From positions 3,942,704 through 4,006,703 of the forward strand of contig NC_045139.1 in NCBI RefSeq assembly GCF_008831285.2: 64,000 nt of DNA, in the 5' to 3' direction. The notes under the pieces are model-generated. The model was given only the letters and a program-made list of their open reading frames with translations, did not search any database and was not told the origin of the DNA. Origin of the DNA: Nymphaea colorata. Lineage: Eukaryota; Streptophyta; Magnoliopsida; Nymphaeales; Nymphaeaceae. This document shows positions 13,356 to 64,000 of this stretch, piece after piece. The position numbers and the translations under genes are program-made. Within the stretch, counting starts at the first letter, position 1; every line of letters starts with the position of its first letter.

Positions 13356-16300
13356 CTAGAAATTACTAATCTTTACATCAAACACTCTCACAGTATGATC
13401 AGCACCACAGGAACCAAGTTGCAAGGTCATCTCGCCACCTGTATCTTCCTCATGGTTTTTCCTCCAAGCCAAGCGATGCACTGTGGAAGCATGGCATAGA
13501 AATGGATGCAACCGAAACGCAGGCCTGGCACTGAACTTTGATGGAACTAAAGAATCACTGGCAGTTTTTTCAGTGCTAGTGCTCCATAGCTCAATTAGGC
13601 CATCTTCCATACCAATTGCAAGAAGCCCATTGCAAAGCCCAACCCCACCAGACCAAGACAAAGCCGTCACACTGCTAGCAAACTGTGGCAACACCATCAG
13701 CTGCTTGACACAAGCTTCCTCATCAGGGCTGACAATGACTGTCCATATCTTCACAGTTTTGTCCCTAGAACCAGTTGCAAACTGGTGGCCGTGTGGGTTC
13801 CAAGAGCATGCCCATATAATTCTCTTATGTGCTTCAATCTTTGCAACAAGTTTATGACTGACCTCTTGCAGCCCTGCAAATAAAATATCACATTAAAATA
13901 CAGTGCTATGTCCTGAAAGAATAGATGAAAAGGAGAAAAAATGTGCACCATCTCGTGTTATTGAGAAAAGAGAAAAATGGCGATCTCTTGAGACTGCTAA
14001 CAGGAAAGAGTCATCTGGAGAGAATTCCATCTGAGTCACAGTCAAGCTGTGGGATTGTAAACGATCCAGACCCTTCCATGACCCTACTTGCCATAGCCAT
14101 ATTTCTGCAACTTTCGCAGATTGCGCCTGCCAAAAAATCGCTTGAGAAAGAGATACTAGGAATTCCTGAATAAGAAGAAATTTTCTTTCTACATAATAGA
14201 ATGCAAGACATGAAAATATCAGGTAAAGTAAGGGCATTCCAGTTTTCAGGTTTATTAAGCTCACTAGCAGTGACACTCCTATAACTTCAGAATTTGAGTT
14301 GTTCATCAAAGTAATGGACCAAAGAAACTTTATGCATAATCTGCAGACAAGTGTCAGAAAACAAAGAACATGGTTTAGACAAGTACTCATGGTTATTATT
14401 CGCTTAGCAAGTGTAGTGATGAAAAGTTATTAAGTAGCAGAAACTGAGCAGCTTTTATATCTAAAGAAATTGTCAAAATACCAGCACAAGCCTCCAGGGC
14501 CATAATCCTCCACAGATGTGGTGGATGTATGGGGTCACCCTGAAATTTCAGATTTAATTCCACAATAAAATTCAAGAGCGACCCCTAACTTTTTTAACAT
14601 TTTTTTCCCTCCTTTTCAGAAAGCTTCATTCAATGACTTAAAAAACGGACACAAATATCACTTACGATTTTATAAAAAAGGCACCGATAAGGGAGTGGCA
14701 GTATATTTTTTTATTTTTTCTACATTCTTAGTTGATTCTACCTTTTCTGTAGAAGAGATACCAGCCCCAGGGTCAACAAACCCACTTAGATCCCAATAAA
14801 ATGTCCAGAGCAACCTTGACAGTATAACTAAAAGGTAGCAATTTCTGTAAGCTTGAGTGCCAAATAGCTCCAAGATCAAGAAACCTTTGCAAATATCAGA
14901 TAACGTAGATGAGATTTCAATATCAAAGCTACAAAAAGCCTAAGCAGCCCTCAATTTACTTTGCATAAGCTTGACTGTGAAATACAAGCCCCAGGTTAGC
15001 AACCCTTTGCAGATCTTAACTATGAACGTCAACAAGATTCCAACAGGTCCTCACTTCTCAGTAGCATTGACATGACAAGTAAAAGAAATTGGTTTTTGTA
15101 AGCTTACTAACTCCAGAACCAACAACCCTTTGGAGTTTGGATATCTCATGTACTTATGTTGATAAGTTTGATAAAAAGTTTAGTTGCATATCTAATGCAT
15201 TTATGTCATACTCAGGTGAATCAATCCAAAAGATATTTGAAAACGGAATGTTGAGTTGAAAAGCATACCTTTTGCACACCTAAGCTGGATCCTGACCATT
15301 AAAATATCCAAACCATTCCAGGAAAGACAAATATACTGCTTATCAATCTATCGGATAGCAAAACAATGGATTTACCACAGCAGGACATTCAGTGTAAGAT
15401 GCGAGGACATAATAATCAAGCTGCCACATAAAATGACCACTGTAATGTGCAGCCCAACAATAACTCTGCTACAAATATGGAAACATAATACCAAAAAAAT
15501 ATTTTACAATAACAGCTGATCAGATCTGATATTTTGAAGCACTACCAGCCCAGAAATAATCAATTCCTCAACACGAGAAATAATACCCAAAGAATGAAAA
15601 GATACTAAAAATCCATAGAACAATAGCATTCATTAGAAAGAGCAAGTTTTAACCATCAGAGGCATCTTCCAAGTCATTTCAAATACAAAATCATACAAAT
15701 ATATTAAGTAAACAAGTGACATATCTTTTGATGAAAGAATCTTATGTAAACAAGTGATACATTTTTGACGAAAAAAGGTAATGAATTCAGCTCATATTAC
15801 CTTGCACGAGGAAGCAACAAGCTTCCCTTCGTGATCACAGCATAAGGAGAAAAGCTCATTTCCATGACCATAAAGCTTGTGTGTTTCTGGCCATAGAGTG
15901 TGCCATGCCAGTTGCTCCTCAATCGGGGGTTCCATTAGTTCAATTGGAACTGCATCTGGAATAGTTTCCAATGGTTCTGAACCAACTTGTGTGGCCATAG
16001 CTGCTGTATTGTGCTCTGCTGAAAGAGAAAAAAAAATAGCAAAGTACCTTAACAACTGTTAAGAACATGAGTAACAGAGAAAAGGAAAATCAAACATTGG
16101 TATAGAACTTTAAGATGAAAAGCAGATTCCATTGAACTTCAACTGAAGGCACCTAAAATGCACAACCATTACCAAGAAGCTTGCCACCTGTGAGCAGGCA
16201 CTTCTCAAAGCATGCATGCCTCGTATGTAAGCCCATGTGCCTCTGGACTTTGGACTGTCTTGTTGCAAATCTGAAGTAGCACTTGGTTAAGTCATGCTCT

Positions 16301-19300
16301 TCATGCATAAGTGCAACAAGGGAATGTCCACTGTTCCCCAGATGGCACAATTGCTCGAAGTATTTATGTGCTCCACCCACTATTTCTTGTAGAAGAATAA
16401 AATCAAATGACAAGTAGAAACAAACTAGAGAGAGGATTTCTTACAATGAACATAGATAGGTTTCTGAGATAGCCCAAGAGCAGACATATTTGCACCTAAA
16501 ATTTGAACATCTTCTCCAGTATCTTCCAGATAGCTTGTCATTTGTGCCGAAGCATGTCTTAGTGTCTTTAAAAATGAGAGTGGAGCACTAAATACTCTAG
16601 CAACCTTTTCATCTGCTCCACTAACAAATCGTTGATTGCCTTTCCCCTGAATAACTGTTACACAATTAATGTCATGACCATGAACCTGTGGCCGAGCTAT
16701 TTCATGCCAAGAAGGTTTCTCGCCAGAGGATCTTTTACTTTCCCATGAAGCAAAAATGCGAGTAGTCTGTCAATTAGTGAATGTTCAATTATAAGGCTCC
16801 ACATTTAAAGTTGTACAAAAGAAAAACTAAATGATGGTGAGGGCTACAGTAAGTTACAGAGACAAATCATTAGGAGCTACAACTATCCAAGTCTTAATCA
16901 ACAACTTGAGACCTTGTGACAAAATAATCTGAATCCACATGCAAAACTCATTGGTATTAAGAACAGTATGCTAAACAAACTTCCAAAATGAAACTTACCA
17001 TACATATGCAAATCAAAATGTATCACCCAACTACACATACGGCCAGGGTCACTGACAGGCATGCATATGTGTTTTTCAGTTATGTACTAGCAGTAAGAGT
17101 AAACCAGTGAAGAAGAAGGTTATGAACAAAGGTAGGCTAGAGATGAAGGAATTGATTAATGATATGTTGATACACCTAGGTCGATAGTAGCTCAAGAGAA
17201 AAGAAGCAAGCTGAAGGCACAGAGTAACAGGCACCACCTTTCTGTGATTAATATGTAAAGCAGTTGATTGGCATGATCCCAAGAACTTGACTAAGCCACA
17301 TTTTTTTAGATGAAAGCACAAAAAATGTCTCAAGCAGATCGACAAAATTGCAGTCGAAGATAAAAATTCATGGTATGGTTCTAGAACTACCAAGTCATGG
17401 CCAAAATGATGCATGTACCAAAAGAATAGACTTAATTTGCTAGAGATAACTTACTATCTTATATCCTATCTAAGGACAAGAATAGTTCAAAAATTTGATC
17501 CATTGTAACCCTTGAAAGTGAGGACTTGTGTCTCATATTTAGAAATGTAAAAGAAAGGGTGAATAAAACATTCTCTACCCTTCTCCACCTTTTTGAATCA
17601 GATAATAACAGTTTGGATAAATAAGGATAGTGAACATTTTAGGAAAGTAAAGGTAAATGATGTGTAGCTTTGAACTATTTCTTTCCAACAGTGGTGGTGG
17701 TATGAACCACCCAAGGCAGTCGCATCTTTGGATGATATGGACTATGGCTGCAATTTGAGCAGATGTTCTGTGATTTTTTTACCCAAATATAACTGTTACT
17801 TGTAAATAAAAAAATATGCCTGAAGATTGCTCCAGGTTCATCAATTCAAAGCTTCAAATCCATATCACACAGACAAGGTCATGGGCGTCAGAACAGGTGC
17901 ACCATCCAACATGTTGCAAAAACAGTCGGGAACTTGTTAAGTGTGGTTAACACACTGAATACTTATTCTTGTCCAACTTGGGAACTATGTTAACCTTGAC
18001 CAGTCCAAATTGTCCTTTCATTAGGGTTCAGATTTAAAGACCAAAGGAAGCCTGTCGAGACTGCTTCTTCTTCTCTCCCTGTCTGCAGATTGTTTTGACT
18101 GTAGATTTCTCTTTCTCCCCGGCTTGGTTTGCCTTGCTGGGCGAGCTGGCCATGCTGCTACCACCCGGATGCCAGCTTAGAAACAGAAACAGTTGAGCAT
18201 AAGCTAGTGAAACTCAAGTCACTGATGTTGCTGTTGGAGCTCGAGTTCTAGCAGGTGGTGGTGGCAGCAGAAGTCGAGCCACCACTATTATACTCAGTCT
18301 TCAGGATACCTGATTATTTTTGTCTCTCTCTCTCTCTCTCCCCCTCTCTCTCTCTCTCGCTCTCCAGCAATAAAATGTTGCAGGAGTGTCATAACCGCTA
18401 TGCGCTTTAGTAGAATGAAACTATTTGTATAATTGTGCACATTTTGGTATATTAGTTACTTTATTTGTCTATCAGTTTATGCATTATGATTTATGAATCT
18501 ATTTCTTAATATATATTATACACACAGCAACACAGTTGTGCCCCACACCTAAGCCTGGGCGTCGGGCCGGGCCGGCCCGTTTAGCCCATTTAGATTAAAA
18601 AAATAATTTTTTAAATTTTTTTGTTTTAATAATATATATTTATTATTAATAAATATATTTTATATTTAAAAAAATATTTTATAATTAAAAAATTGTTTTT
18701 AAATTTTAAATGGGCCGGGCCCGGGCCGAGACCCGGGCTATCGGGCCGGCCCGATGCCCACCCTTACCCACACCCAACCTGCAACAATGTCACATAGGTT
18801 CAAACTATGTGTATATTTGGATCAGATCAGATTCATATTTCAATCCAGATCTATTCTGTATCTTAATTGATATCTGAATGTTGCTTTTATGTGGAAAATA
18901 AAAATTAACCATGTAGTCGATTGGCTACGGTGGCAGGATGCATGATCTGCATCTGGATTCAATTCTACACAATTCAATCTTATTCAAATTAAATTCAAAT
19001 ACAAATTGAATATTACCATTGATTCCAATCTAATAAAAACTAGTCCTTGCTCGATTTGTGCATTCCCACAGATTAACATATCAAAATGTTCACCCTATGA
19101 ATCGGATGACTCTCTCGTAACACAAAAAGAAAAAATGTCAGCAAACAACATCATGCCCTTTTGTGTTCAAACTTCAAAATACCAGGATAAACCAACTGTA
19201 CCTGATCATGGCTCACTGAAAGAATATATTCACCAGATCTGGACCACGAAAAATCAGTTACAGTACCACTGTGCCCTGATGGAACTACCTTTGGCTGCCA

Positions 19301-22300
19301 CTTTTCTTGTTCTGAGCCTACGTTCTTCCACAAATGAAATGATCCACCATATCCATGAGCTAGAATTGAATCTCCATGAGGACCCCAATGGCCGCCATAA
19401 AAGCCTAATGCAGAATGGCTGAGTTCACCAACACTGACCATATTTGTCCAAATACCGGTATTCTTTTCAGGCTTCCATATCATCATCGTCTTGTCCATAG
19501 ATGCAGATAAAATGCTCTGGGGCTGAATCCAACCCTTTTTGCTGTCATCCATGATAAGAGCAGGTTGCCAATCCACTGAATACACCCAATCATCATGTCC
19601 CACTAGAAGAGATTCAAGAGAAACCTGATAGGTGGAATCTGCAACCGTGAAAACTGGACCCTCAATATATGACATCATGGAAATGCAGTTTTGGATGCTT
19701 GTTGCTTGAGCATTGGATGGAAGTTCACGCAATGCTATCCTCCATACACGTATTGTTTTGTCCTGTGATGAGCTTGCCAGAAATAAAAAATCTGATCCTC
19801 CATCAACAGAAATTGGTAATGAAAAATCCAATCCCCGGATCCAGTCTGTGTGTCCCTTTAACTCGCAAGCAGGTGAAAGCTGATGCAGTGCATGAAAATA
19901 CAGTATTGAGCTTACAGGACAAATCAAATGAAAAGATAAACATACAAGTTTTTTTTTAAAAAAAAAGAAAACTCATAGACCTTTCCACTTCCTTCTCCAG
20001 AATATAAATGAATCTTGTTGTCAAGTCCCCCCATTGCAAGAACCAACTGTCCAGGATTTTCTGGCAACGAAGCCAATGAGAGTGCAACCATGGGTCTCAT
20101 CCCAACAGAGATAGAATCCAGGCATGTCATTTCACAGCCATCTGCAAGAACCACAAAAGCATAAGGAAAAAGAGACCTGGAAACTGGATGACACCTTTTT
20201 TTAAAAAAAAAAACTCTGGTTGATGTAGTTACATTTGTTCTTTATTGAAATGGCTACAGTGGTACAGAACTTCGATCACGGAGGAAAATTTTTAATAGTT
20301 ATTTCCGCCTGGAAAATAATCTCCTGACAAGCTATTTTTTGATCTGCAGTTCATAACTAGTTCCTCAATGAAATTGTTATAATAATCTTCTTCCATGTGA
20401 TTTGCTTATCTGCATGCTCATGCACATGTACATGCTTGCATTTTTTAATTATAGATGATGATAGCAAGATTAATTTCCAATATTTTCTGAAAAGCATTCA
20501 CATGTTAGGATGTCATCTTTAAGTATTCTAGCTTGTTTGACATTCACCATATTTTGTAATGCATGATAATATCTAAATGAACCAGAACTGGATCTATGAT
20601 ATCCTGTTCTCCCCATCATTGAATACATCTCACTGTGTTTTGTTTCTTGAGAAGCCATTATAATCTTGCTGAATATATGTACTCCTTTAACTTCTGAAGT
20701 GTCCCCAGTGGCTTGCAAGTGGACATGGATCTAAATTGAAGGCAATATTATGTTACCCCAACCAACTTAGCTAAAAAGTATTACATCACAAGCAGAAGAA
20801 ATAGACCACGAAAATAGTAAACCACTTTGCTTCAACAAGTGAACAGATAAAAAATACATGAAAATCGCAAGAAGGTTGAAATACAACCACATATTTTTAG
20901 ATAGCACGTACAGAAAGAACCAAGTAGAACTTGTAATAAAACATTCATACATCACAAAAGCAATCACGAGAAACTTATAATCACTTACAGGATATCATTT
21001 GTTTGAAGATAGTCACAAATAACATCTTGGAGTTTTAAACAGCAAGGTTTTTCTCGATAATACGGCGAGCTTGAAAAAAAGGGAAAAATACGGTAAAATT
21101 TTAAAGATTTTAAAAAACTAAAAATGGGGGAAAAATAAAATAAGTGAGAAACTAATAACACAAACATCGAAAGATAAGTAGATTTGCAACAAATAAAAAA
21201 TAGAAAATGAAAAAAAAACTGTTTGACATTAAAAAACTGAAAAAAGTGAAAAACACGAAAAAACGTGTTAAAATGCATTTTTTCGTTTTTAATGTTTTTT
21301 TCAAAAAAATGAATTTTTTTAAGTTTTAAACGGTCATTTAATTTATCATGTTTTTTCTTTGCGTTTTTTTTTTTGGAAAAAAAAGCGTATTTGAACACTA
21401 TTGAGGCCTTTTCCATATCTAACATGTACAGTAAACTATATACTAAGTGATCCAACATACCTCCATAGCTTGACGGAAGATCCATTTTCCAGAGAAAAAC
21501 AATGCCATCAGATCCTGTGGAAGCAAATAGAGAAGCACCTTCTGAAACGAGAAGTCCAGTAATGCACGTCACACCTTTTCCATGTGATTTTGGCACTTGC
21601 ATTACATACATCCACTGTTACAACAGAGTTATTAAGCAAGCAAGCTCCAGAATACCTCAACAATGGCTAGGCAATCAACACCCTATTGAATTTCCACAAC
21701 CTTGAAACAAATATGTAGGATGAATGACCATTTTTTTTTTTTGGTGGTGGTGGTGGGGATGTGTGTGTTGTTGGTTGGGAAGAGAGAGTGTCTAGCCATA
21801 AGCAAGTCAACATACTAACTAGTGCCTCCCATATGCCAGAGAGCAATCATGGCTACAGCTGCCAGAGTTTCTTCTTTTTTATCATGAAGGTATTGTCATT
21901 TCTCAGTTACTTTCATGCCTGTTCTTTTTGGAATGCTCAGAGCTTCTATTAATCGTAAATGGCAAAAGCTTAATACGCAGCAGATGCCAGATGCCACAAA
22001 AACAGAGGGATCAATGTGTTTTAAGGACATGCCTGTTAGCATATTCCAGTGGAAAATTTCGGGCCCCTATAGATGATCCAAGTCAAGCTATATGATGTCT
22101 ACACTCCCCTTTCAATTGACATAGAATCTTTTTGTCATTTTTGTTTAACATGCTTTATCTAGATTTGCCATAACGGAACAATTCTCGCTCTTAGATATTG
22201 CCGTTGGACTGAAAGACAACATAACATAGATAAAACAGGGAAGAGGAGGCACTTGTCAATCCTTGATCATGGACATACAAATATCAGAATAGTGGATTCG

Positions 22301-43660: not shown

Positions 43661-43730
<70 letters not shown>
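43661..43730. repeat. (AT)n microsatellite, 70 bp
   Basis: 35 uninterrupted AT units followed by a short GA-rich run. Confidence 0.97.
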
Positions 43731-45384: not shown

Positions 45385-45490
<106 letters not shown>

Positions 45491-46880: not shown

Positions 46881-47118
46881 AGTCAAGTTGACAAGAACCA
46901 CACCCTTCGAAGATTTGTTTGGTTGATTATGAGAAAGTGGACAATAGTGACAACAAGGTGGAGACAAGAACGTCATGCGGATGATCATTTTTTAATTTGA
47001 AAAATAATTCATGTCCGTGCCGAAGTGACTTCGACAAGACTTCTCAAGGCAGTTAGTCGTCCAAAAGAAAAATTGCATACATTAGAATACTTCACATTTT
47101 TTTTGAATTATATATATA

Positions 47119-47203
47119 TCGTTTGGTGATCATATGCTAAGTACATTCATGAATTATTGCTCAATTAGTTAAGAGTGTATAAGGATATGTAGTCATGAAA
47201 TTC

Positions 47204-47246
<43 letters not shown>

Positions 47247-47333
47247 TTTGGTGATCATATGCTAAGTACATTCATGAATTATTGCTCAATTAGTTAAGAG
47301 TGCATAAGGATATGTAGTCATGAAATTCCTGAT
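47119..47333. repeat. Recent 90-bp tandem duplication split by a TA tract
   Basis: 47119-47208 and 47244-47333 are the same 90 bp (starting TCGTTTGGTGATCATATGC, ending ATTCCTGAT) with one difference, GTGTAT against GTGCAT. A TA tract separates them and another TA run precedes copy 1, so slippage or unequal exchange between TA tracts is a likely origin. Confidence 0.95.
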
Positions 47334-56523: not shown

Positions 56524-59500
56524 TTACTGTTTCCAAGAACTTTCTTCGGGAGCCTTCGGTTTACCGCGGATCATCTCACTGAAACTGCCCCGCATAATTC
56601 TTCTGAACCTTGTGTCCTCGGGAGCAGGAAGCTGCGGTGGGGCAACCTGTTCTGGTGTGTCTGCACTTTCTTTCTTACCCAAACGCCCGCTGTCGCCAAA
56701 CAAGCTGCTTACTGAGGAGGCAATGCCAAGATGCGCACCCATGACCTTACTCAGGGCATCAAATGCTCCACCTGATCTCTCCCTCAGTATGACCTCCAAA
56801 GCTTCTTTGTGTGCTGGGTCAAGCGCATCTGTGTCTTTTAACAAGTTCTGCACCGTTGGCAGAAGAAGATCCTTCACGGTAGATGCCGGAAGATCTGCAT
56901 ATGAGAAACCACATCAGGCGGACGTTGGTACCATAAAAACCCATCAGTCACCCAACTGTCCCATGCACCACACACACCCCAACCAACAAAGAGCAAACAG
57001 ACATAATTGCCAACGATACCTTCCACTTGTGGCTCTTACATGTTACATTTATGATTTATCTAAGAAAAAGACATGCTACTGATTATCTTTTATACATGAC
57101 CTAAAGTCCAGAAAAAAGCCGAACCCCCTTCAATTAAACTTGCCTCCAGAGTCCTTGGCTGTGTCGGTGTCAGTGATGACAGCAATACAACCTTCAACTA
57201 CGGTCCGGTATCCCCCCATTTAAGACAGAGGCATAACACCAATGGGATTTGAATTTAGATATATGGTTAGCAGTCACCGTCTTATTGACTTTTCCATGCC
57301 ACTAGTTCTTTCATTTCTAATTTTGACCAAATTAAGATAAACAAAATTGGTGTAATTTCCCTAGAAGATGTGAATTTAGATAATATGAAGTCAAAAGCAC
57401 ATCTACTATATGTATCGGGCAGCACATTAAAGTCAAGCTGTATGATACCTGAAGGAACACAACCAGAGTTCAAAAAGCGTCTGTTAAAGAGTGTAGATTA
57501 TGATACAAAAACTCACAATCAGAGGCATAATGGCTAGGCTCCAAGTTGATGAATTTTATCACAATGACTCAACAAGTCCATTATGACATTGAAGAACTTG
57601 CTAAACAGAGGATGATATGCCAAACTCTACCTTCCACTGACTTTTGTAACCATTAGTTGCTTTGTGGATCAATTAATACGAAATTCAAGAAAACTCTACC
57701 AAAGCAAGGAGATTTTAGCACTCTCTTAAACTTCCAGAGCATGACAAGATCCGCTCAATGAAAATTAAACTTGAACTCACAGCTAGAAATATTTAATTAT
57801 TCAAGCTAGGCATTATGAAGCACTTTGTCCAAATCAGTAACCATGGTGTTTATTTCATTAAAAGGACTGGCAGGCATTCATTATATTTGGCCTGTGTTGG
57901 CTTTTCCAAATGCTTAACTACAAAAGTAAAAATTGGTTTATTATGATTATTTTAAAAGATGAACATCATCTGCTTCAAATTGATTCTGTTGATTCAATTT
58001 CAATTGCAGTATTGGATGGCATATGGGACAAACATTGGCCCTTATACGGTTTCATCAAAGAGCCAAGAAGTATTCCATCAGCCAATACAGGCTGTTACTG
58101 GCAACACTAATGGAATGCATGCAGAAGTCATGGGAAGTAGTGTGTTTCAGCTGAACATTCCACTACGAATATGAAAGAAGGAACAGAACAGGCATAAGAA
58201 GTAGATTGTTGAATTCAGATGACAAAAGAGTTACACAAGTTCATCATCATGGACCAGCAATAATTACCAGTCAAGAATGAACTATCCTGGTTCAATGAAA
58301 TACACGAGAAGAAAATTACTGTATCAATGTCAAAATGTCCAGTTTTGGAATGCAGTGCAACTATATGAAAAGCATCTAAAATAAACAATATAATCTGTAC
58401 CAACTATAGAATAATAAAAGCAAAGACCAGTAAATAAACAGAACAAGGAAAATGGCAAATTGCAGTCAAACCAGAAGGATGATGACCGATACATGATTCA
58501 CCAATGTACCTGTTGCATCCAAAGCACGGACTGATTCACAGAAAGCATCAGCTCTTTCACGGCGTCGTCTCAAATCAACTCCAGGAGTAGGCAAAGAACT
58601 AAGGTGGAAAATCTTGGAAAGAACATGTAATGAAATGTCAAGGGAACAAAAATGACAAAGAACCAACTTCTACTGGTAAAGCACAAAAAGACATGAACAG
58701 ATTTCCTTAAATGTTAAAAGAATATTTGCAAAATTTATTAATTAAGGATATAATTTCTTAGTTTATCAGTCGTGTGTGGTATTGCCACCACCAAAGCTCG
58801 GAAAACAAAAAGAGTAGCTTCATGAGATCCATCTTCCAGAAAGGCATCCATCTGAACTCGTATCTTATCAACAATCTGGAAAAATGCAAATATGGAAGCA
58901 TGATGATGGCTGAACCTTGTTTGAGAACTATAATAAGAAGAGTAATAGTTGAAGATGTACCATGTCACTCTTGAAATGTTGAGCAACATATCCAAAAGCT
59001 TCAATACTGGAGTATTTTACATTGACATTAGGATCAGAGCCAAGTGTCACAAGAGCGGGCAGAACATTAGCTGAGGCAGTTTTCACATCAACACATGGTG
59101 CCTACACATGGAAACGACATGATTGCATATGCAAAGAAGTCTTATTCAGAGTAAACTCACTCAGAATTTCTACCTACCAGCGCTTTCAACTGGTTTGCAG
59201 CACCAATCTTCATTGTGACGTTTGGACTAACTACCATTTCCCACAGTATATTGAAAATGATCCCTTGATGTTCTTCAAATGTACTGCATGGATATAGACT
59301 CCATAAAACATAATTCCATATACAAGCTAGAAAAATCTCAGTAGGTACAGATGTGAACATGAAAATACAATAAGCATGCAACAAAATTCTTTTAGAACTG
59401 ACCATCCAAAGAAAATTGTTAGCCTACAAGCAACAGAAAATTAGTTTACTACACACTCATGCATGCGTTCAGAAAGCAGGTTCTTATCTGTCCAACTGTA

Positions 59501-62500
59501 GGTGCCCTTGAGTAATAAGTGCATCAAATCCAGCAACAGAGGAGCACAATGTCACATTTGACAGAACTATTGCGAAGCAGAAATACAATTGAAGGAACTA
59601 CTTAAAAAGAACAGGGACAAATGACAAATAAATAAGAAACAGCCAAATGCAGCAATAACCAACCAAAGGAAGCGGACGGCATTGATGAGCTCAGGACTAT
59701 AATAAACTGGACTAGCACTTTCCCGCTCTGCATTCTGGACCAAAAGCTTTCTCAGGTATTCCGCAAGCTGTTCATGTCTACCAGGTGAACCAAGTAAACC
59801 AGACAAAAGAAGAGGAAGGGCACATCCAAGAGCGAGCTTCTCAGTCACAGTAGTTTTAGGTTGCAAGCCTGGAATATTAAAGAAAAGAAAAAATTACCAT
59901 ATAGTAGCACAACAGGCAAGAACACATTTGTTGGAAGATTCTCACCTTTAACTCTTGAATGTAGAACTGAGGGAAAGTGGGAAAAATCAGCTACATCCCC
60001 TACTGCTAATAAGAAAATAGGCAGCATAATGTGATTGACGTAATGGTCACCAAATAGGCCACAGGCAGACCATAGGAACTGAAAATAATGATAAGTTAAT
60101 TAGGTAAACAGGAGGCCTTTCATCAATCATTGCAAAGAAAGCAATATGGAAACCCACAAAGGTGGCACTAGGACAATGAAGCAGCTAGTAAGGTAAAATG
60201 TGAGGCCCCAGTTATTGGTTGAAAAAACAAAAAATGTGTGTAGCCAAGACATACCTTGGTAAGGCGGTTCCTCAATTTGTCTTCTTTAGGAGGTAGTAAG
60301 CAAGAAAGTTGGATTAATCCAGGAAAACAATCCACATGTAGCCAATCAAATGCAGGCCATTCAATATATTGCCTAGTAATAGTGAGTTAAAAGAGAATCA
60401 GTCGAAGGATCCTCAAAGCATATTATGAAACAACAAAACATAATTGACGCAATGACATTACCCTGCATACAGCTCAAGCAAAGAACTGCAGAAAAAGGAT
60501 TTGCCTTCACCAGTATTTGGAACAGGGTCGCTGTGATTCGGAAATGGACAGCATGCTACTGCTCTTTGATGCACAAAGGGTAGCAACTCTGTTAACATCC
60601 GAAGCAAAACATCAATATTCCAGCGCTCACGTTCACCCAGAACTCGGAAATGAGAATCCACAGAGCCTTCAACCCCTGATAGTGGTGGGCAGCGCTGATA
60701 AAATATGAGTCACTTGAGTTTCCTTCTGAAATTAGAACCAATGGAGAAATTGTGTATCTATTAAACAAAATGTCAGGTCAGATACATACCTGAGCAGAGA
60801 CCAACATATGAGAAAGTAAAATTCGTAGAATGTGGTCAAGTTTGTTTCCCCATCTCACGACAGCAGGAACTAGCTCTTTAAGCGAAGTTTCAACAACAGG
60901 TCCTGAAGGATCACATACTAGTTGGAACATCAACTCCTCCACCTATGCACCAGAACAAAGAAATTTACTTGGACACAAAGGGCAAGTAAAAGAAAAAAAT
61001 TACATAGTAGTTATCACATGATAAAGTCTCTCAGCCATCCCTAAACCATGTCTTTCACCCTGTTCTTGAGCTTACATTGCAGGTAATCTCAGATTTCTGC
61101 TCCATGTTTGCCTCTGAGCATATTTAGTGAGGCTGACCTTGAAATATTTGTCCATATCTGGAAAGAGTGGAATCAGCAAGGCCAAGTTATGAGCAGCAGC
61201 CTCTCGAACAATAGTTGCAGAGTCCTCAACCAGCTGTTGTATAATTGATAAAATCAGTGAAGCACGGATCTCAGGTCTCACAAATTCAGCCAGTTCTCCA
61301 CATGACTGGGCAACAAGCAGCCTGCGCTCCTCATACATGTGATTTATCTACAGGGGACCAGAACACTAAGTAAACATACAGCCCAGCCATTTTGTTATGA
61401 CAAGTTCGGAAGTTCCAGATCCATTTAAGTTGCCTAACCTGTTCCCAGCACTGTGGTAACAACTCTGACTCAGTTCTCACCTCACCAACATTCTTGGCCA
61501 GATTGACACAGGCCTGAGAGAGATGGAAAAAGGCAATTAACATGTTGCACTACCAGATAGAAAGGTAAAAAATCAGCATAATGATGACTGCATATTTTAG
61601 AACTCACATCCATTATAATTCTTCTCTGTTGTTCATCTGGCCTTTTGATTAAATTAAACAATGTGTGTGTTAAGGAATCTCGTGTACTGCTATCTGGATG
61701 GCGTTCAATAGCACACATTATAAGTGGAAGAAGCTCCTGCAGTGTACAGAAAGCCACGTCAATAATCAGCAACAGAAGTATATAATATAGTTACTAATCT
61801 TCAGGCCAAATCAAATAACCAACCTCCCGATGATTTATGAGTACAAAAGGAACAATCTTTGGCAAAGCATCTGAAAGAATCTGTATGGTTTCCAAACCCT
61901 GCAGCACAAATGCCAAAATCAACAATATTCAGGTGGAAAAGCTCATGTTGCAAAAGAAAAGGTGGGTCCAATCTCAAACAAGATTTAAGAGAGTATTCAT
62001 TATTACCGTCTTTTCATGACACTTTTCTCCCTTAAGAGTGTTGTTGTTGATAGGATGGTTCCTCTCTTCAAGTGTAGTTTCGGAACTGTCTACATTATCA
62101 GCACATTCGATAAGACTTGAATAAGAGGACCCTAGTGCTTCACTGCTTAGCCTCAGATCCTTGTGATCTTCATGCTTAACATCCAACGTGCTAGGACATG
62201 CAGCATTTTCATCTGAATTTCCAGATACTAGATTTGCAGCATGAGAAACTACTATTTTATCTTCATGTATTTCAACCACTTCCATTTCTGACTGTTCAGC
62301 AACACTTTGTGGGTCAACAAGATCGCCAGTGCTTCCGGTAGCGGTAGCATTTTCTTTCAACTTTTCAATTTCCATCTGTAATGATTTAATCTCTGCTTTG
62401 TAGCCTTCAATAGTTGATGGCCGCTCATTGTCTGCACTAATCCACCCACTATTGGCTCGAAATCCTTCTATATGCATCTTCAATGAAGTGATTTCGGCTC

Positions 62501-63118
62501 TGCAATCATTAAGTTCTTTTCTCTCAGCCTCCAATGACTTTTTTAATTCTTGTATCTGCCAAGAAAAGACACAAATGTGTTGTATAGCAGAAGGAAAGTT
62601 TTGAAATATACAAGAAGCTAGGTTAACAGTGATAGAGTAGTAGTCACTATAAGTGAATTTGCAGACAATTCTTGGTATTACTATTTGCCTCAAGGTCTCA
62701 TTAACTATTTCTATTGCCCATTTCTTTTGGAGATATTTAACTCTACATAGAGTAGCAATCACTATCAGTAAATCTGCAGCTATTCTTGTTACGACTGTCT
62801 GTTTTAAAGTCATAACTATTTCCATTTTCCTCTTACTTTTAAAGATCTCTGACTTTTCAGGAAAAAGAAGTAGAAGAAAAGAGGAAAAGTAGATGTGAAA
62901 AGAAACTCCAATGAAATGATGTCAATACAATAACAAACAATACTAACCAGATTTTCTCTGTCTTTGGTTTCCTTTTGAGAAGACTCCAATGACTTGCTTA
63001 ATGCAACTATTTGTCCATCGGACAGCTCCTTAGCTCTCATCAAGGATTCTTTTTCCTTTAACAGCACATCCTTCAGTTTCAGTAGTGTCTCATTTTCCCG
63101 AAGAATAGACATTCTTTC
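56524..63118 (-). CDS. Coiled-coil and HEAT-repeat protein (At5g16210/RELCH-like), 5' end outside window
   Basis: Plant counterpart of the LisH/coiled-coil/HEAT protein RELCH, which in animals acts in endosome-to-Golgi cholesterol traffic; the plant role is unknown. Exons 5' to 3': 63118-62948, 62555-62007, 61898-61824, 61736-61608, 61513-61439, 61347-61138, 60942-60790, 60694-60462, 60372-60255, 60078-59946, 59868-59664, 59283-59178, 59101-58961, 58875-58752, 58626-58510, 56894-56524. They sum to 2910 nt (969 residues) in one frame. The first two exons encode heptad-rich coiled coil (ILRENETLLKLKDVLLKEKESLM) and an acidic linker; HEAT-type helices follow (PLIMCAIERHPDSSTRDSLTHTLFNLIKR; QMDAFLEDGSHEA). 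The C-terminus ends with a conserved EDTRFRRIMRGSFSEMIR stretch. Homologues are about 1180 residues, so about 200 N-terminal residues including LisH lie beyond 64000. Fifteen introns lie between these exons: 14 are GT-AG and one is AT-AC. Confidence 0.95.
58627..58751 (-). other. U12-type AT-AC intron in the HEAT-repeat gene
   Basis: 125-base intron with 5' splice site AAT T|ATATCCTTAATT, an exact U12 AT-AC donor, and 3' site CATTAC|ATGTTC. A branch-like TCCCTTGAC (58645-58637) fits the TTCCTTRAY consensus at 8 of 9 positions and puts the branch A 11 bases from the AC end, in the range of minor-spliceosome introns. Joining gives AAT TAT GTT CTT TCC AAG (LRNYVLSKIF), in frame and matching the family (LRDYLLSKI). 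No usable GT donor is present at this position. It should depend on U11, U12, U4atac and U6atac. Confidence 0.92.
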
Positions 63119-64000
63119 CTAAGCCAAATAGAAGCAAGCAGCCATTCAACTATTGCACTAGCAGATTCTAGTTTGAGAGCACCGGTGACATGTCAATAGT
63201 TCAATTATCAACAAATTATCTGGATCCAGCAACCTTTTGCAACTACACATATAGGAGGTAATCAAGCCATCAAGGCAAAACAAGTGATACAACACTTTGA
63301 AACAAAATACCATACAGTTACAATATTAACTCCTTTATTCTCAGAAGCTAAGTCTCTGTAGAAAACCCTAGATGAAATTCTAAATTATGTCAAAGTTTTG
63401 ATGAACTTACCTACATGATATGCTACACAGTGACAACCAAAAACATACGGAACAACTTCCTTTTCCTCATTTTTGAAAACTCTTTACACCGTACAAACTT
63501 AGATGTTAACAGTGAAAGATGCACTATGACTTGCAGTACATGAACTAATTAACAAAGGCCGATGTTCTTTGTGTACCTATTGATGGAGGCCTCAAACGGC
63601 ATACTTGAGGACAACTACAATGTCAACGGGCTTGTTATTTAAGTTAAAATGAAGAACAAACTTTCAAAGTGAATGTCTACAGTGTGTTCCGTTTGGAAGC
63701 AGGTCAGCCAATGCAACCTAACTGGTGTATGGGAAAGAAGGGAATTCCAAGGACCAGTTCAGGGGTTTGGTACTCCACCAATTCTACCATGGAGATCGAC
63801 CCAGATGGCAACAAATAATTTCAGATATATTGGCATTGGAAGAGTTTCAGCACCATCAGTAGATTTCTTTCTCAGCTTTAAAGGTCAAACATGCTAAGAG
63901 TTTTAGCCCTTCAGGTGTCATATGAGGTGTGATGATACGTAACCTGAGCTTCACCATCGGATAGGAGTGGATACTACCATATAAAAGAAGGCAGAAGAAT
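63119..64000 (-). other. Intron of the HEAT-repeat gene, running off the window
   Basis: Upstream of the acceptor TTTGGCTTAG| at 63119 I found no further exon on the minus strand; the family's preceding coiled-coil and LisH segments are not encoded here. The plus-strand frame at 63673-63897 has no family support. Confidence 0.7.

Follow-up and report, generated by a model that had tools for sequence, protein, structure and literature searches.

The Arabidopsis protein TGNap1 (At5g16210) has been described as a trans-Golgi network protein and a homologue of mammalian KIAA1468/RELCH (PMC6294250). In that study its N-terminus, for which two LisH domains are predicted, associates in vitro with microtubules, and a secreted marker is partly retained in a mutant (PMC6294250). 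In another report At5g16210 is termed a HEAT repeat-containing protein, and its counterpart in Brassica napus is listed as a gene with both alternative splicing and differential expression (PMC7548069). U12 splicing of At5g16210 is not mentioned in the passages of the literature on the gene that were consulted. A search for RELCH together with "minor intron" gave no match in the main texts of the papers searched. The matches to KIAA1468 combined with U12 concern, by their titles, dog copy number and joint disease and look unrelated, and neither KIAA1468 nor RELCH occurs among the matches listed in a wider literature search. An orthologous intron may well be present already in public lists.

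The signals of the U12 class of AT-AC introns are given as a donor that begins at the exon boundary with ATATCCTT and a branch element TCCTTAAC located 10–15 bases upstream of the junction (PMC2426677). According to one plant survey, the share of AT-AC introns among those of U12 type is 26% in Arabidopsis, 23% in soybean, 22% in rice and 13% in maize (PMC7367187, Table 2). Regarding their position in genes, a broader survey reports that minor introns are biased significantly towards the 5′ end in 112 of 290 Streptophyta species, of which 11 remain after multiple-testing correction (PMC10639083).

Here we analyse a window of 64,000 nucleotides of Nymphaea colorata (contig NC_045139.1, positions 3,942,704 to 4,006,703), for which an AT-AC intron in a HEAT/RELCH-like gene had been predicted from the DNA letters. 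Judged by its sequence, the stretch 58751–58627 on the minus strand is almost certainly a true AT-AC intron that depends on U12. It lies in the 3′ part of a HEAT-repeat gene, probably of the trafficking type and most likely a homologue of TGNap1/RELCH. The junction would then be expected to be used in RNA.

Results

The HEAT-repeat gene enters the window at its right edge (Table 1). Its exon model was made by reading the three minus-strand frames and placing splice sites by hand, while positions were located by a script. When joined, the 16 exons (63118–56524) give 969 codons and one terminal stop. Fourteen of the 15 introns in the model are GT-AG and one, intron 14, is AT-AC. No exons were recognised between 63119 and 64000, and the gene probably has its 5′ part outside the window, past base 64000. 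With exon 11 joined straight to 59283, the intron between them is a clean GT-AG one, in phase 2 and 380 nt long. The stretch LSNVTLCSSVAGFDALITQGHLQLDR (about 59564–59487) was considered as an extra exon and dropped by eye, as no standard in-frame join to exon 11 was seen. The last intron, downstream of exon 15, is 1615 nt long as compared to 76–392 nt for the other 14 modelled introns.

Table 1. Positions in the window of the HEAT-repeat gene and of the elements around its predicted AT-AC intron
Feature	Positions	Strand	Remarks
HEAT-repeat gene	56524..63118	-	16 exons modelled in the window
Exon 14, upstream of the AT-AC intron	58752..58875	-	ends ..IPHTTDKLRN plus base 1 of the following codon
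Intron 14, predicted U12-type, AT-AC	58627..58751	-	125 nt, phase 1; from the exon model and motifs
5′ splice site ATATCCTT	58744..58751	-	identical to the U12 AT-AC donor given in PMC2426677
In-frame stop on intron retention	58738..58740	-	within the first 14 nt of intron 14
Terminal AC of intron 14	58627..58628	-	from the sequence
Putative branch element TCCCTTGAC	58637..58645	-	1 mismatch to TTCCTTRAC; then 10 nt to the intron end
Exon 15	58510..58626	-	coding for (Y)VLSKIFHLSSLPTPGVDLRRRRERADAFCESVRALDAT; the next intron, 58509–56895, is GT-AG

In Pfam the whole protein scores 42.1 bits for HEAT against a cut-off of 23.5, which agrees with the HEAT assignment made in the original prediction; no single stretch passes an E value of 0.001 alone. 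Solved structures in the PDB show a general HEAT likeness, the best being the PP2A scaffold subunits (E 3.7e-11). More specifically, the gene is probably homologous to TGNap1 of Arabidopsis and RELCH of mammals, in line with the RELCH-like identity given in the first reading of the sequence. It resembles TGNap1 in its HEAT repeats and in a coiled-coil-like sequence seen by eye upstream of the HEAT part. It differs in that the predicted N-terminal LisH domains of TGNap1 were not found in the 969 residues seen, for which Pfam reported HEAT only. Upstream of 63118 no LisH was found either (no Pfam family in any of the 10 stretches tried, out of 18 open stretches of at least 18 residues), and it is important to note that the 5′ end of the gene is probably beyond 64000. 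Pattern searches with the last 250 residues gave 64 matches in prokaryote contigs and 14 in viral contigs, none of which was confirmed by tblastn. The lack of a relative in these two collections is expected, because this is a plant gene.

The coordinates, donor, terminal AC and branch element of the original prediction are exact when read on the minus strand, and the sequence supports its assignment of the intron to the U12-type AT-AC class well. The donor begins at the first intron base with 0 mismatches. The 9-base U12 branch consensus is TTCCTTRAC. The TCCCTTGAC element differs from it at one position and its distance from the intron end falls within the 10–15-base rule for this class; the branch A would be at 58638. 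In the other 14 introns modelled for the gene, the donor departs from the U12 consensus at three or more positions and the branch element at two or more. The G+C content of intron 14 is 0.27 as compared to 0.40 and 0.45 in the flanking exons. Across the junction the coding frames join, and the T that ends exon 14 forms a tyrosine codon with the AT that opens exon 15. AT is found after the exon end as well as after the acceptor, so that a shift of the junction by one or two bases gives an identical product and the placement is not unique from the mRNA alone. Of these placements, it is the one in which the intron opens with ATATCCTT that agrees, by its sequence, with a known class of introns.

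It had been claimed that only the AT-AC pair joins the coding sequence in frame. We enumerated the in-frame pairs within 58875–58510 for introns of at least 60 nt and found the frame kept open by 15 GT-AG, 12 GC-AG and 36 AT-AC pairs. The claim in its strict form is thus too strong, but none of the 27 GT-AG and GC-AG pairs leaves both exons whole, and in this restricted sense it stands. The same enumeration bears on the alternative that a GT-AG intron is removed here by the major spliceosome, for example with 58788 or 58791 as its first base and an exon start at 58612 or 58669, and that the U12-like motifs are coincidental. For the pair with 58788 as the first intron base and the exon resuming at 58612, 17 residues, VAIPHTTDKLRNYVLSK, are deleted; with either of these two donors an exon start at 58612 costs 17 or 18 residues, while with 58669 the end of exon 14 is lost and intron-derived residues are gained. 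On site matrices built from the other 14 introns of the gene, the in-frame GT donors score 1.4 (58788), 2.8 (58791), −2.7 (58806), −1.2 (58857) and 2.5 bits (58872), and the acceptors, given by exon start, 2.5 (58612), 1.0 (58666) and 3.5 bits (58669). Genuine sites of the 14 GT-AG introns, scored by leaving one out, range from 1.2 to 9.1 for donors and from −2.1 to 8.1 for acceptors. The better GT-AG alternatives are therefore weak yet not impossible as splice sites, since their scores are inside this range.

What speaks against all 15 GT-AG pairs is the loss of at least 37 nt of exon 14. These 37 nt score +0.39 bits per codon, as does exon 14 in its entirety, in a codon test that covers only 12 codons of this tail and had exons 14 and 15 and intron 14 kept out of training. 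Exon 15 in its frame scores +0.43 bits per codon over 38 codons, and intron 14 scores from −0.39 to −0.65 over its three frames. The tail that every GT-AG join would cut thus carries the gene's own coding bias. Pfam does not discriminate between the joins, as the best HEAT stretch reaches 24.3 bits with the AT-AC join and 24.6 bits with one GT-AG join; the best-stretch match stops before the AT-AC join, to which Pfam gives no support.

Coincidence of the motifs was evaluated on 200 simulated strands of 64 kb (first-order Markov). A pair was defined as ATATCCTT with, within 60–400 nt, an AC and a branch element that departs from TTCCTTRAC at no more than one position. The donor occurs on average 1.93 times per simulated strand, and the complete pair is present in 16 of the 200 strands (about 8%). 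U12-like motifs alone are no proof, because an AT-AC pair within 400 nt is found in that many simulated strands; it is the position exactly at the required frame junction that is the strong part of the evidence. By rough arithmetic rather than a test, the chance of such a pair at the needed place and in the right frame is about 3 in 100,000 (1.93 per 64000 × 0.085/1.93 × one third for the frame × 60 positions, i.e. a placement tolerance of 60 nt). Considering this figure together with the coding bias lost from exon 14, we regard splicing of a GT-AG intron at this junction as very unlikely.

In the window itself there are 6 exact ATATCCTT sites on both strands, and 1 of the 6 has a partner within 400 nt. 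For the sites at 47313 and 47188 a branch-plus-AC partner is found only at 2181–2310 nt. The region 47109–47333 is a 125-bp tandem duplication (99% match), each copy of which carries one of these two minus-strand sites. There are also four GTATCCTT sites in the window, three of them with a branch-plus-AG partner, at distances of 601–2411 nt.

AT-AC ends could also belong to an intron that is spliced by the major (U2) spliceosome. Such introns exist: the CENATAC paper counts 85 major AT-AC introns or related subtypes in human cells (PMC8280824), and figures for four plants put AT-AC at 0–0.05% of U2-type introns (PMC7367187). The intron considered here has, on the contrary, the full U12 extension ATATCCTT and a U12 branch element at the U12 distance, and its donor scores −7.2 bits on the major-type donor matrix of the gene, which was built from GT donors only. 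Removal of this AT-AC intron by the U2 machinery is accordingly extremely improbable. Equally hard to believe is a pseudogene or an assembly fault in which no functional junction is needed, for which nothing specific speaks and against which stand the single open frame through all 16 exons, with its stop at the very end, and the GT-AG sites of all other 14 introns.

Elsewhere in the window, WD40-repeat exons are located on the minus strand at 13356–19972. The part at 19151–19972 is a match to Elongator complex protein 2, the E value for the top solved structure being 1e-49, and the WD40 part at 13356–13892 may belong to the same gene. A long open frame at 1300–2301, also on the minus strand, has weak alpha/beta-hydrolase similarity (Hydrolase_4, 26.7 bits, cut-off 27). 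Two arrays consisting purely of AT dinucleotides are found at 45387–45483 (48.5 copies) and 43661–43730 (35 copies). Rfam gave nothing at the gathering score over the whole window, and ARAGORN found no tRNA in it.

Discussion

In its AT-AC ends, perfect donor, branch element with its distance, and phase 1, intron 14 is like the U12-type AT-AC introns of plants, and like them it is the sole minor intron here, among 14 major-type introns. We see no difference in sequence. Its location at 83% of the coding sequence seen, i.e. near the 3′ end, is less usual for plants (PMC10639083). One late minor intron does not contradict a tendency towards the 5′ end.

In the textbook pathway of minor splicing the U11/U12 di-snRNP is followed by the U4atac/U6atac.U5 tri-snRNP. 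If intron 14 is spliced in this way, recognition of ATATCCTT and of the branch element TCCCTTGAC would fall to the U11/U12 di-snRNP, the tri-snRNP would act next, and removal of the intron would bring together the two parts of the tyrosine codon. With intron 14 retained, translation would end at the stop near its beginning and the 162 residues past the junction would be lost. This stop is 228 nt upstream of the junction between exons 15 and 16. By the usual distance rule for nonsense-mediated decay, the retained mRNA would be a likely target of this pathway, because the stop is so far ahead of the next exon junction, and the retained form may therefore be degraded.

The original prediction also expected that expression of the gene would be sensitive to the loss of minor-spliceosome factors. 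DROL1 is the plant orthologue of TXNL4B, the partner of CENATAC, and DROL1 mutations in Arabidopsis are stated to cause splicing defects in AT-AC U12-type introns (PMC11039992). By analogy with the work on DROL1 and CENATAC, it would be fair to expect such sensitivity of the gene described here.

A further claim was that a gene finder restricted to GT donors would miss or truncate the exon at 58510–58626. This is only partly right and needs correction, because there are in-frame GT-AG joins that can spare all or most of that exon, cutting at least 37 nt from the upstream exon instead. The locus is in this respect a clean case where GT-AG-only annotation would err: frame-preserving GT-AG pairs would drop at least 12 residues and still look plausible. 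Otherwise our analysis adds one intron to a well-described class. As a U12-type AT-AC intron by its sequence, intron 14 would be a definite test case in plants for splicing factors specific to AT-AC introns.
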